A stretch of DNA of 34,158 nt from Spirochaetota bacterium (GTDB taxonomy: Bacteria; Spirochaetota; Spirochaetia; Treponematales; Breznakiellaceae). The position numbers were made by a program, and so were the translations under genes. Below are positions 2,825 through 7,373 of this stretch, one piece after another. The stretch spans positions 1 to 34,158 of the forward strand of contig WRKI01000348.1 in assembly GCA_009778155.1 (NCBI GenBank). Reading direction: 5' to 3'. The stretch's first letter is position 1; every line of letters begins with the position of its first letter. The notes beneath the pieces are model-generated. The model saw only the letters and a program-made list of their open reading frames with translations. It made no database searches and was not told the DNA's origin.

Positions 2825-3415
2825 TTATGCCTTTCTTGAGCCGGGTTTGACCGCTGGGGTTCCTTGCTTGCATAGGTCGCAGTCGGCGGCTTCCCAGTTG
2901 CCGGCGGCCACTTTTACCGCTGGGTAAAAAGGCCAGGGCATATCCGCTTCGCCGGCCAAGCGGCGGTCTACCACGCAGGCAAGGCCGGCAACGGCCGCCC
3001 CTTCAGCTTCCAACGCCTTGGCGCATTCCAAGGACGATTTGCCCGTGGTAACGACATCTTCGACAATGACAACCCTTTGCCCCGGCTTTAGCTCGAAACC
3101 ACGGCGCAGGCGCATAACCCCGCCGTCGTCCCTTTCCGTGAAAAAAGCGGGAAGCCCCAACTGCCGCCCCAGCTCGTAAGCGGGAAGAATGCCCCCGATT
3201 GCAGGCCCGGCGACAGCGTCAACGGCAAGCCCTCCCGACTGCATATCTTGGCGTATTTTTTCTGCGACGGCGGCCATTGCAGCGGCGGCCTTGTCCGGAT
3301 GTTGAAACAGTTTGGCGCATTGAATGTAAACATTTGAATGCTTGCCGGAGCTAAGCAGAAAATGCCCTTCCAAAAACGCGCCGCATTCCTTCAAAATAGT
3401 CATTGCTTTGTCCAT
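2825..3415 (-). CDS. pyrE: orotate phosphoribosyltransferase
   Basis: Enzyme of 196 residues that transfers the phosphoribosyl group of PRPP to orotate, giving orotidine 5'-phosphate, the fifth step of UMP synthesis. The PRPP-binding signature VIVEDVVTTGKSS lies near residue 120, and the N-terminal FLLSSGKHSNVYI segment is typical. The ORF track extends to 3526, but the ATG at 3415 is preceded by a strong AAAGGAGG Shine-Dalgarno, and the upstream residues (an Arg-rich stretch) are antisense low complexity. It is the last gene of the uraA - symporter - pyrF - pyrE operon, starting 10 bases after pyrF ends. A palindrome downstream marks the operon end. Confidence 0.95.
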   Translation of the reverse strand: MDKAMTILKECGAFLEGHFLLSSGKHSNVYIQCAKLFQHPDKAAAAMAAVAEKIRQDMQSGGLAVDAVAGPAIGGILPAYELGRQLGLPAFFTERDDGGVMRLRRGFELKPGQRVVIVEDVVTTGKSSLECAKALEAEGAAVAGLACVVDRRLAGEADMPWPFYPAVKVAAGNWEAADCDLCKQGTPAVKPGSRKA

Positions 3416-3425
3416 AAATCCTCCT

Positions 3426-4352
3426 TTAATTTTTCGCCGCAACCCGCGCCGCAACCCGCGCCGCATCTTGTAGCGCGGCCTGCATCGCCGCCGCCGCTTT
3501 GCGAGCCGCGCCGGCGGCAAAGTCATTGCCGATTGATGTTTCGTCTAACGTGCCGGCAGCTTTCAATTCCCCGCGCCATGCCTCGATAATGGAACGCGAG
3601 GCGTTCACCACTGCCCCGTTTCCGTTATGCAAAAACAAGGCCGCATCTTGCGCCCCCCCGCCTTGAGCGCCGTAGCCCGGAACAAGGAAAAAAAGATTCG
3701 CATAGTTTTTTCTAATTTCGGCAACCTCGTCTTTTTCGGTACAGCCGATCACGGCTCCGAATGCGCCGTAGCCGTATTTTCCCGGAACATCCTTTGCCAA
3801 AAGCGAAAGTTTGTCGCCGACAGCATTGTACAGCCGCCCCCCGCCCCCGGCAACCTCAAGATACTGAAAGTCGCGCATACCGGCGTTGCTCGTTCGCATA
3901 AGAATAAACGCGCCCTTGCCCTTTGACTTTGCCCATGCAAGCCAAGGATCGAGTGTGTCCATGCCCATATAGGGGGACAGGGTAACAAAGTCCGCCTCTA
4001 ACTCGCCGTCAAAGTGGGCTTTCGCATAACGCGCCGCAGTGTCGGCTATGTCGCCGCGTTTTATGTCGGCAATTGCCAAAAGCCCTTTTTTGCGGATATA
4101 TTGCAGGGTTTCCGCATAAACCTTAAACCCCTCTAAACCCATCTCTTCGTAAAAGGCTATCTGCACTTTGTAACAGGCGGCAATATCGCAAGTGGCTTCT
4201 ATTAACGCTTTGTTAAATGCCAGGACAGCGGCCGGCGCGGAATCCGCCTTGCGCACTTCCGCCGGGGGGACGCTGTGTGCGCCGGTGTCCAGCCCCACGC
4301 AAACCGCCCCCCTTTCCTTTACCGACTCGAACAACTTGTCAATGTTATACAT
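3426..4352 (-). CDS. pyrF: orotidine 5'-phosphate decarboxylase (type 2)
   Basis: Decarboxylates OMP to UMP, the step directly after pyrE. At 308 residues it is longer than the compact type 1 enzyme and fits the type 2 group. The catalytic signature DIKRGDI lies near residue 98, and the phosphate-binding region NASRSII near 250. The last 30 residues or so are an Ala-rich helix (AARKAAAAMQAAL...RVAARVAAK) encoded by an imperfect 12-base GC-rich repeat, which I regard as a lineage-specific tail. The ATG begins 2 bases after the symporter stop codon, and GGAGAGG precedes it. Clear operon membership with pyrE. Confidence 0.95.
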   Translation of the reverse strand: MYNIDKLFESVKERGAVCVGLDTGAHSVPPAEVRKADSAPAAVLAFNKALIEATCDIAACYKVQIAFYEEMGLEGFKVYAETLQYIRKKGLLAIADIKRGDIADTAARYAKAHFDGELEADFVTLSPYMGMDTLDPWLAWAKSKGKGAFILMRTSNAGMRDFQYLEVAGGGGRLYNAVGDKLSLLAKDVPGKYGYGAFGAVIGCTEKDEVAEIRKNYANLFFLVPGYGAQGGGAQDAALFLHNGNGAVVNASRSIIEAWRGELKAAGTLDETSIGNDFAAGAARKAAAAMQAALQDAARVAARVAAKN

Positions 4353-4354
4353 TA

Positions 4355-5623
4355 CTATGCGCTGCCTCTCCAGCTGCCAAGCAAGCCAGGGGCAGTCTTT
4401 GCGACATCGTCGGCCAGTTCCAATTCCCCTTCGGTTTTGGCAACGACTATCGATGTGGCCGCATCGCCCAATATGTTGACAGTGGAGCGGACACCGCTGA
4501 CTATGCGGTCTATGCCGGCAAGAAGCGCCATAGTTTCGATGGGAAGCCCTGCGGCGGTTAAAACAATGGACAGAGATACAAGGCCTGCACCGGGAATGCC
4601 GGCAGTACCTATAGAAGCCAAGACTGTCGATAATACTATGATGAACTGCTGGCTTAAAGTTAGTTCTATGCCGAAAATGTGCGCGGCAAAAATAGCCGCC
4701 AGGGCTTGATAAATAGCAGTCCCGTCCATGTTTATAACAGAGCCGAATGGCACGACAAAGTCGGCGACTTTATTTCCAACCATGCGCTTGGTTGCCGCAA
4801 GGGTAAGGGGCATTGTCGCAAAACTACTGCTGGTAGCAAAGGAAAATAAAATGGGTTCCTTCATTTCTTTGAAAAAACGTAAGGGGCTAACCTTGCCTAT
4901 CAAGCCTACCATAACAACACCGTAAACAAGCACTACAAAAATTGCAGAGCCTATGTAAACTGCCACGATAAATTTTGCGAATGGCATAAGAACCGCAAGC
5001 CCGTGTGTTCCGACAACCCAAGCCATAAGCCCCATTATGCCGTAAGGTGCAAAGTTAAGGACAATCGTCATAACCTCTTTCATTACATCGCCGCCGGCCT
5101 TAAACAAGTTATGAACCAGCTTTCCCTTTTCGCCAAGCCTTGTAAGAGCCAGCCCTAAAAGCATGGCAAAGAAAATAATCTGCAACAGATTCGCGCTGTT
5201 TAACGCGGCGAAAGGATTGCTGGGAATGATGTTTACAAGCGTGTCCAGGGCAGAAGGCGCGGCAACCGCAGTCGCCGCAAGCCCTTCTGTGGAAAGATTC
5301 ACCCCCGAGCCAAGATTCATAAGATTTGCAAGAACCAACCCCAAGAGCACTGCGGGAAAACTTGTGCAAATAAATGTAAGTATCGTCTTACCCCCGATTT
5401 TTCCCATTGTTTTGAAATCCCCGACATCGGCCACGGCTGTTACCAAAAGGCAAAGGATTAACGGGGCGGCCAACATACTAAAAAGGCGTATCAAGATGGT
5501 GCCAAGAAATTGCAAAACCGCAGCTTGGGGGCCTAAAATGACCCCCAAGGCGATACCGACGATAAACCCTACCATGATCCGTTTGAATAAGGGCATACCT
5601 CTCCAAAATTTGAACATAAACAT
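4355..5623 (-). CDS. dicarboxylate/amino acid:cation symporter (DAACS family)
   Basis: Integral membrane sodium- or proton-coupled symporter of 422 residues, the usual length for GltP/DctA relatives, with about eight hydrophobic segments. The family signatures are present: the Ser-rich re-entrant loop SSSFATMPLT near residue 270, and NMDGTAIY near 305 in the substrate/cation site, followed by GIPGAGLVSL in the second re-entrant loop. AGGAG lies six bases before the first ATG. Substrate cannot be read from sequence; glutamate, aspartate and C4-dicarboxylates are usual. Its place immediately before pyrF-pyrE, 2 bases apart, suggests aspartate (a pyrimidine precursor) or orotate, which DctA is known to import in Salmonella. 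The specificity is inference. Confidence 0.9.
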   Translation of the reverse strand: MFMFKFWRGMPLFKRIMVGFIVGIALGVILGPQAAVLQFLGTILIRLFSMLAAPLILCLLVTAVADVGDFKTMGKIGGKTILTFICTSFPAVLLGLVLANLMNLGSGVNLSTEGLAATAVAAPSALDTLVNIIPSNPFAALNSANLLQIIFFAMLLGLALTRLGEKGKLVHNLFKAGGDVMKEVMTIVLNFAPYGIMGLMAWVVGTHGLAVLMPFAKFIVAVYIGSAIFVVLVYGVVMVGLIGKVSPLRFFKEMKEPILFSFATSSSFATMPLTLAATKRMVGNKVADFVVPFGSVINMDGTAIYQALAAIFAAHIFGIELTLSQQFIIVLSTVLASIGTAGIPGAGLVSLSIVLTAAGLPIETMALLAGIDRIVSGVRSTVNILGDAATSIVVAKTEGELELADDVAKTAPGLLGSWRGSA

Positions 5624-5694: not shown

Positions 5695-7041
5695 CTATTC
5701 TTTCTTTTTGCCGAACTCGAACTTTTCGCCCGGCAAAACTATGTTAAGGAATACGCCCAAGAGCGCGCCGATTGCGATTCCCAGCCTGTCGATAGGCACG
5801 CTGTAGCCGCCAAGCGTTACGGTGATAAGCGGGCCGAACCTTAACCCAAGCCCTGTTACCAACACTACGGCTATGATAAGCAGGTTTCGCGTTTCGCCAA
5901 TGTCCACCCGGTTGTCAACCAGCGTCCGTATGCCCACCGCCGCTATCATTCCGTAAAGCACGAATGACACGCCGCCGACAATCGAGTCCGGGATTGTGTA
6001 CACGATTGCGGCAAAGATCGGCATAAAGCCAAGGATTGTCGCATAAAAGGCCGCCAGTATTACAACCCTTGCGTCGTGGATTTTCGTAAGAACTACGACA
6101 CCGACATTTTCGCTGTAGGTCGTCGTCGCCGGCGCGCCCACCAAGCCGGAGAAGGTTGTGGCAAGACCGTCGCCGATCAATGTGCGGGTAAGGCCGGGTT
6201 TTTCCGTAAAGTCTTCGCCGCAAACGTCAGACAGGATTATCATGTCGGCAATATGTTCGGATATCGTCGCTATCGCTGCCGGTATCATGACAAGGATAGG
6301 GATAAGCCCGAAGCGCGGCAGGAAAAACGGAGGAAGCCCGACAATGCCCGCCTGCGCCGCGCCGGCAAAGTCAAGAATCGCCGTGCCGTTGGGGTTTGTC
6401 ATGCCGGCAAAATGGAAGATCACCGCCGCCAAATATCCGCCGCCCAAGCCCAAAACAATGGGGACAATCTTGAACATTCCCTTGCCCCAGGCCGCCGCGA
6501 TTATGACTATGCTCAAGGAGATGACGGCTAAGAGCATATTGTTGTTCGACTGGCTGATTGCAAAGGGCGCTAACATTACGCCGACAAGTATGACTATCGG
6601 CCCCGTTACCACTGGCGGCAGATAGCGCATGACTTTTTTCGCGCCGATAATTTTTACCGCAAGCGCCAGAAGCAGGTAGAGAAAGCCGGCGACAAAAATC
6701 CCGCCGGTGGCGTAAGCGAGTTTGTCCGCCCGCGACATATCAAGGCCGGCGAAGATTCCGTTGACTGGGTCTGTAACAAGCTGCACCCCGGCGAGGAAGG
6801 CGAAGGACGATCCCAAAAATACGGGAACGCGCCCTTTGCTCATAAATTGGAAGATTAATGTTCCCACGCCCACGCCGATAAGCGTTACCTGAACGCTAAG
6901 GCCGGTGATAAGCGGGACGAGGATTGTCGCCCCGAACATTGCGAACATATGCTGCAAGCCCAGCAGCATCGATCTTGGCAGGCCAAGTTGTTTGAATGAA
7001 TCCTTTATGGGGCCTATGTCCGGTTCCAGTTGTTTGCTCAT
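5695..7041 (-). CDS. uraA: uracil permease, NCS2 family
   Basis: Membrane protein of 448 residues that imports uracil, or less likely xanthine. About 12-14 hydrophobic segments are visible. The NCS2 signatures are present: GLQHMFAMFGATILVP at the N-terminus, and PATTTYSENVGVVVLTKI near residue 275, the form seen in uracil rather than xanthine carriers. The ATG at 7041 has AAAGGAG seven bases upstream. It overlaps by four bases (ATGA) the stop codon of a 43-codon leader ORF, so its translation may be coupled. It heads an operon with pyrF and pyrE. The 5' leader holds an intrinsic terminator. Confidence 0.93.
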   Translation of the reverse strand: MSKQLEPDIGPIKDSFKQLGLPRSMLLGLQHMFAMFGATILVPLITGLSVQVTLIGVGVGTLIFQFMSKGRVPVFLGSSFAFLAGVQLVTDPVNGIFAGLDMSRADKLAYATGGIFVAGFLYLLLALAVKIIGAKKVMRYLPPVVTGPIVILVGVMLAPFAISQSNNNMLLAVISLSIVIIAAAWGKGMFKIVPIVLGLGGGYLAAVIFHFAGMTNPNGTAILDFAGAAQAGIVGLPPFFLPRFGLIPILVMIPAAIATISEHIADMIILSDVCGEDFTEKPGLTRTLIGDGLATTFSGLVGAPATTTYSENVGVVVLTKIHDARVVILAAFYATILGFMPIFAAIVYTIPDSIVGGVSFVLYGMIAAVGIRTLVDNRVDIGETRNLLIIAVVLVTGLGLRFGPLITVTLGGYSVPIDRLGIAIGALLGVFLNIVLPGEKFEFGKKKE

Positions 7042-7169
7042 GTTTTTTCTCCTTTGCTGTCAACCGCATGGCCGGCATCCATGCCGGCTGGCAGCCTGTT
7101 AAACACCGATGATGCTTTGCGGTTGCTGTTTAAGCAACCGCAAAGCTTTGACTCTTCGACTTGTTCCAT
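7038..7169 (-). CDS. 43-residue leader ORF coupled to uraA
   Basis: Starts with an ATG behind a strong AGGAGG Shine-Dalgarno and ends in an ATGA overlap with uraA. The product (MEQVEESKLCGCLNSN...) has no family I recognise. Two palindromes lie within it: a 14-bp stem over the KLCGCLNSNRKAS codons, and GCCGGCATGGATGCCGGC just before the uraA ribosome-binding region. The Shine-Dalgarno sits directly after an intrinsic terminator. I read this as a regulatory leader peptide or translational coupler rather than a gene with a trans role. It is too short to appear under its own start in the ORF track. Confidence 0.55.
   Translation of the reverse strand: MEQVEESKLCGCLNSNRKASSVFNRLPAGMDAGHAVDSKGEKT
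7071..7088 (-). promoter_or_regulatory. palindrome in the uraA leader ORF
   Basis: GCCGGCAT-CC-ATGCCGGC, an 8-bp perfect stem with a 2-base centre, lies about 20 bases upstream of the uraA Shine-Dalgarno. It could be an operator or an RNA hairpin affecting uraA initiation. Confidence 0.4.
7114..7146 (-). promoter_or_regulatory. 14-bp hairpin inside the uraA leader ORF
   Basis: GCTTTGCGGTTGCT and AGCAACCGCAAAGC form a perfect 14-bp stem with a 5-base loop, inside the 43-codon leader ORF. A ribosome translating the leader would melt it. There is no T-run, so it is not itself a standard terminator. Confidence 0.6.
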
Positions 7170-7198
7170 TAAATCCTCCTGCAACTTGAATTTTGAAC

Positions 7199-7224
7199 AA
7201 AAAAAAACCGCCAAAAGGCGGTTA
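7199..7224 (-). terminator. intrinsic terminator in the uraA 5' leader (attenuator)
   Basis: On the minus strand AACCGCC-TTTT-GGCGGTT is followed by an eight-T tract that includes the last two stem bases. It lies about 20 bases before the Shine-Dalgarno of the leader ORF and downstream of a good promoter. There is no upstream coding gene for it to end on this strand, so an attenuator role is the natural reading. Confidence 0.75.
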
Positions 7225-7344
7225 ATATAACAAAATATGGAAAAATGTTTGCACAGTGCGAACTGGAGCGACAGCCCCGTTTGCACAACCTCGGAACAAC
7301 TTGGTTTTTTTGCGATATTTTCCAAACTTAATCATACTTTTAAA

Positions 7345-7373
7345 AATATAGCGTTTTTTAAAATTTTATGCAA
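7345..7373 (-). promoter_or_regulatory. promoter of the uraA-pyrE operon
   Basis: On the minus strand TTGCAT, a 17-base spacer and TATATT. Transcription would start near 7338, leaving about 115 bases of leader before the terminator. That leader carries two direct copies of TGTGCAAAC (33-base period), the only notable repeat there. No known riboswitch or PyrR-binding loop is clearly recognisable. Confidence 0.6.

Follow-up and report, generated by a model that had tools for sequence, protein, structure and literature searches.

A likely pyrBI-type transcription attenuator upstream of a uraA operon in a spirochaete, with counterparts ahead of pyrB in related genomes

The leader of the uraA-dctA-pyrF-pyrE operon in the window, as we term the whole 34,158 nt stretch of spirochaete DNA analysed here, is likely to be a ribosome-coupled, UTP-sensing transcription attenuator of the pyrBI type, in a variant that would be translated from leaderless RNA. 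Judged by its sequence, the element is homologous to one found in related genomes ahead of the operon pyrB-pyrI-pyrF-pyrK-pyrD-pyrE, and the parts that are conserved, namely a predicted translated leader frame, a U-tract and a terminator, are those of the pyrBI plan. These shared parts, together with the lack of both PyrR and Rfam elements and with known precedents for coupling and for leaderless translation, make pyrBI-type attenuation the best account of the leader. Most detailed accounts of UTP-sensing attenuation by a trailing ribosome concern enterobacterial pyr operons, and a search of an open-access library found no report of such an attenuator in spirochaetes.

On inspection of the sequence, all of the elements between 7373 and 7038 read on the minus strand (Table 1). 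The first-pass annotation of this region had set out a promoter, a terminator, a Shine-Dalgarno sequence and a 43-codon ORF containing two palindromes and overlapping uraA by ATGA, and this layout is present with nearly all details correct; the terminator, credited with eight T, has nine in a row, seven of which follow the stem-loop (7223-7206). What was missed is the 37-codon ORF that takes up the leader, with its stop at the terminator. It begins with the ATG at 7335, 9 nt past the -10 box, and no Shine-Dalgarno precedes that codon in the sequence, hence translation would begin on a leaderless or almost leaderless RNA. The TAA stop (7224-7222) is situated at the base of the terminator stem, and the 24 nt ahead of it are U-rich, with 64% U in the last 22 nt before the stem.

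Table 1. Features of the attenuator region and the downstream operon, in window coordinates.
Feature	Position	Strand	Basis
-35 box TTGCAT	7368..7373	-	sequence; TTGCCA/TTGTCA in relatives at equivalent place
-10 box TATATT, 17-nt spacer	7345..7350	-	sequence; top-scoring promoter upstream of terminator
Leader ORF MIKFGKYRKKTKLFRGCANGAVAPVRTVQTFFHILLY plus stop, 37 codons	7222..7335	-	sequence; pyrB leaders of relatives arranged alike
Hairpin GTGCAAACGGGGCTGTCGCTCCAGTTCGCAC, possible pause hairpin ~11 nt before U-tract	7256..7286	-	fold; pausing role putative, not conserved
U-rich tract, proposed UTP-sensitive pause region	7225..7248	-	U enrichment across long leaders
Intrinsic terminator AACCGCC-TTTT-GGCGGTT + T-run	7199..7223	-	sequence; covariance model of pyrB leaders
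Shine-Dalgarno AGGAGGA of mini-ORF	7174..7180	-	same place as pyrB ribosome binding site in relatives
43-codon mini-ORF, ends ATGA on uraA	7038..7169	-	sequence; no family match
Perfect 14-bp inverted repeat inside mini-ORF	7114..7146	-	0/1000 shuffles
uraA-like NCS2 nucleobase permease	5695..7041	-	94% identity to paralogue elsewhere in genome
DctA-like dicarboxylate symporter (SDF family), possible orotate importer	4355..5623	-	family match; orotate role predicted
pyrF, OMP decarboxylase	3426..4352	-	family match
pyrE, orotate phosphoribosyltransferase	2825..3415	-	family match

The repeated leader sequence that had also been pointed out, the 9-mer TGTGCAAAC, does occur twice on the minus strand (7287-7279 and 7255-7247), but as a signal it is weak, a repeated 9-mer appearing in 2.3% of shuffles, and it was not seen in the pyrB leaders of relatives. 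It was rejected as a switch: TGTGCAAAC offers two alternative pairings with GTTCGCAC, neither touching the terminator arm.

The leader sequence of the window was not conserved in any other genome, a BLASTN search with the whole leader in 100 relatives returning terminator pieces only; the conservation of the leader that the first-pass annotation had called for among relatives holds instead for the element ahead of pyrB. Upstream of its ribosome binding site, the uraA paralogue in the same genome (L112) has no sequence in common with the uraA of the window, and the leader is not found at the uraA homologues of relatives either; hence conservation was sought at pyrB. In related genomes, some of the terminator matches were ahead of pyrE by about 4 kb, and there the six-gene pyrB-pyrE operon has the element directly ahead of pyrB. 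Together with the gene content, such operons suggest that the genome is from the termite-gut treponeme family of spirochaetes. A covariance model, R1, was built from 22 pyrB leaders with the window excluded; its top site in the 3.5 Mb genome from which the window comes was 7252-7198 (44 bits, E 1.1e-4), the next reaching 26 bits (E 0.48). Among the 100 relatives, the matches to family f1 above 41 bits all lie ahead of pyrB, the window's own excepted. Two weaker f1 matches, and R1 matches, in genomes G081 and G066 were ordinary terminators or chance, and an apparent leader match on contig C274 proved to be the start of another gene on the opposite strand. The proposal of transcription attenuation ahead of a uracil/orotate operon is therefore well supported by the conservation of the element ahead of pyrB.

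A strong terminator lies within 150 nt upstream of pyrB in 31 of 81 regions, against 0.30 expected from dinucleotide shuffles, with a stem that in almost every case reads ACCGCC..GGCGGT. The element is absent from more than half of the pyrB loci. The combination of a promoter, an ATG close to it and an ORF whose end falls at the terminator was found in 13 leaders out of 35, where 0.79 would be expected; in these 13 no Shine-Dalgarno-like motif precedes the ATG. To avoid circularity, the ATG was then picked solely by its distance from the best promoter, and the frame positioned in this way was free of stops before the stem in 24 of 27 leaders. Stop codons before the stem in these 27 leaders totalled 5, 44 and 21 in frames 0, +1 and +2 respectively; the +1 count is inflated by ATGA starts, so that frame +2 is the fairer comparison. 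Shuffle tests of the open frame gave P values of about 2.5e-9, or 1e-8 without the window, which treat the leaders as independent, something not fully true of related genomes; the window leader taken as a single sequence stays open in 19% of its own shuffles.

In 14 leaders the stop codon falls 1 to 6 nt before the stem, with that of the window at -2, whilst in other leaders the frame continues into or through the stem. The gap between the -10 box and the ATG is 6-9 nt in most leaders, which, together with the lack of a Shine-Dalgarno, suggests that the RNAs are leaderless. In some relatives the ATG and the stem are only 36-48 nt apart, and yet the terminator and open frame are common to these leaders too. 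A Shine-Dalgarno seems to precede the leader ORF in two leaders, L267 (G117) and L284 (G106); these and L275 (G107) are from complete genomes, and the switch could be tested there if the genomes are those of cultured strains.

The last 22 nt before the stem contain 56% U in the 13 long leaders, compared with 25% elsewhere, a difference reached in none of 5000 permutations; the short leaders L184, L190 and L201 have no obvious U-run. This bears on the signal, as the best supported parts of the element, the predicted translated leader and the position of its stop, are by themselves not specific to UTP, and a coupled ribosome might report an amino acid or the general rate of translation. We consider sensing of this kind unlikely, given that the feature that recurs is the U-tract before the stem, that the genes are pyrimidine genes, and that the leader peptides share, by inspection, no run of regulatory codons, in which they also differ from amino-acid attenuators of the trp, his and leu type.

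A metabolite-binding riboswitch, in which a closed multibranched aptamer would stabilise or free the terminator, seems less probable again. The leader with its terminator folds better than shuffles (z -4.3, or -2.9 without the terminator), but upstream of the U-tract stability is similar to that of shuffles in most pyrB leaders (z -0.6 in the window), no antiterminator pairing with the terminator arm was seen by eye, and the 36-48 nt between ATG and stem in some relatives is too short for most aptamers. Within the window, no Rfam family reached its gathering score, the best sub-threshold match being RyhB with 26.6 bits versus 55; this match and one to GcvB rest on the terminator. The first-pass annotation had seen no clear match of the leader to the PyrR-binding loop or a known riboswitch. 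Its accompanying suggestion of a possibly new RNA sensor is not supported, as sequence conservation is lacking in the RNA upstream of the U-tract, which in most leaders is no more structured than shuffles. The window has a strong hairpin before the U-tract, and there is no excess structure in this region across leaders.

No more credible is an unregulated 5' leader in which a partial terminator acts constitutively and the ORF is present by chance. The composite layout in the window alone is found in about 1.3% of shuffles, which is not overwhelming, but such a leader would not account for the conservation of the terminator, the ATG position and the open frame across the family, nor for the match to R1. 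PyrR-dependent attenuation with an unusual binding loop, the manner in which Firmicutes control the same genes, is very improbable, as there was no PyrR over the cut-off in 60 genomes (the window's own and 59 relatives), in which control proteins were detected, and no Rfam PyrR match. Bacillus likewise has transcription attenuation of its pyr and uracil permease genes, but this requires PyrR and its binding loop, neither of which was found here.

Under pyrBI-type attenuation, the transcription start, leaderless translation, pausing and UTP signal that we infer would combine as follows. RNA polymerase would begin transcription on the ATG (7335) or a few bases upstream of it, and a ribosome would load on the leaderless, or nearly leaderless, RNA and translate its 37 leader codons. 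With UTP in short supply, polymerase would pause in the U-rich tract (7248-7225) and the ribosome would catch up, covering the 5' arm of the terminator once at the stop codon (7224-7222), such that uraA-dctA-pyrF-pyrE would be transcribed. When UTP is plentiful, polymerase would run ahead, the hairpin (7223-7206) would form and transcription would end near 7199. Precedents exist: termination in E. coli drops from about 90% to less than 10% when a stop codon lies 5 bp ahead of the terminator, the ribosome covering the hairpin arm (PMC4824070), pyrBI operates by coupling leader translation to transcription (PMC5021804), and many mRNAs of the spirochaete Leptospira are leaderless (PMC5243855).

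The resemblance to pyrBI of E. coli and Salmonella, the leader gene of which is pyrL, extends to pyrB and pyrI being the first genes of the operon in the spirochaete relatives, to the predicted translated leader peptide, and to a U-rich stretch before an intrinsic terminator, with tight coupling that would be needed to prevent termination (PMC5021804, PMC4824070). As with E. coli pyrL, the frame of some spirochaete leaders runs into or through the stem. The spirochaete element differs in having its start codon 6-9 nt past the -10 box with no Shine-Dalgarno and in having leaders down to 11 codons, which often stop just before the stem; the switch in the window, moreover, appears to control uraA-dctA-pyrF-pyrE and not pyrB. 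It also has no T-run in its first bases for reiterative transcription, which makes UTP-dependent slippage at the transcription start unlikely.

At the pyrE attenuator that E. coli has behind rph, the ribosome finishes a few bases short of the terminator stem, as it is predicted to do in the window, but what it translates there is the gene of a full-length enzyme, whereas here it is a leader peptide. In Sinorhizobium meliloti, the trpL attenuator RNA (rnTrpL) has the leader-peptide ATG as its 5' end and is hence a leaderless leader mRNA (PMC7298713). The spirochaete leader peptides would be leaderless in the same way, although the S. meliloti system senses tryptophan via Trp codons and alternative hairpins, neither of which was found here. 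On balance we lean towards the wider proposition that a family of spirochaetes uses a stripped-down pyrBI-type attenuator, with a leader peptide read from leaderless RNA of about 60 nt, which probably arose independently of the enterobacterial one and was passed to a uracil/orotate uptake operon in one lineage that lost pyrB. The parts conserved ahead of pyrB across the family would show repressor-free control of pyrimidine genes to be more widespread, and the leaderless versions of 11-40 codons raise the question of whether a ribosome can load at the 5' end of an RNA fast enough to catch polymerase within about 40 nt.

The operon itself fits the import of uracil and orotate followed by the action of PyrE and PyrF, since E. 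coli and Salmonella take up orotate through DctA (PMC13328217), and the DctA-like protein may do likewise. A second copy of the uraA-like permease gene (L112, G000:C346, 3449-4808), with 91% DNA identity from 13 nt before the ATG, sits in a cluster with xanthine dehydrogenase-like and FdrA-like genes, suggesting that the permease has been duplicated between purine and pyrimidine operons. No aspartate carbamoyltransferase above the family cut-off was found in this genome, the assembly of which is 92% complete, whilst one was present in 14 of 14 control genomes; two weaker full-length matches are ornithine carbamoyltransferase and YgeW. There is a pyrB remnant, a C-terminal fragment containing stops and about 65 to 78 codons long (L250, G000:C206, 5228-5461), directly upstream of intact pyrI and pyrC; pyrK-pyrD are on another contig. 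An intact pyrB elsewhere in the genome is possible but unlikely, because the broken fragment adjoins its usual neighbour. As only this fragment is left, the switch that once served pyrB now seems to drive uraA-dctA-pyrF-pyrE, and has probably come to control the uptake of uracil, and probably of orotate, along with the last two steps to UMP. The window would hence represent a regulatory rewiring, with synthesis lost and the switch retained with changed genes.

Different leader ORFs are found ahead of other uraA genes. Upstream of uraA homologues in genome G004 (L113, minus strand, about 5150-5050) and of uraA in termite-gut Defluviitaleaceae (L032 and L034), ORFs led by a Shine-Dalgarno overlap a terminator, possibly another pyrBI-like arrangement, with Firmicutes included.

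The 43-codon mini-ORF had been taken for a translationally coupled component of the attenuator. It sits beyond the terminator and does not belong to the attenuator, but it probably does couple translation to uraA, with which it shares the ATGA at 7041-7038. Its Shine-Dalgarno and ATG are located 37 nt past the terminator, the position at which pyrB starts in relatives, and it is probably the relic start of the replaced first gene, its translation now leading into uraA. The sequence matched no protein family, and a search of the window's own genome matched no other place, the palindromes excepted. The arms of the perfect inverted repeat (7146-7133 and 7127-7114) are separated by a 5-nt loop and followed by no T-run, whilst the second palindrome, GCCGGCATGGATGCCGGC (7088-7071), is REP-like, with many copies in the related genome G080.
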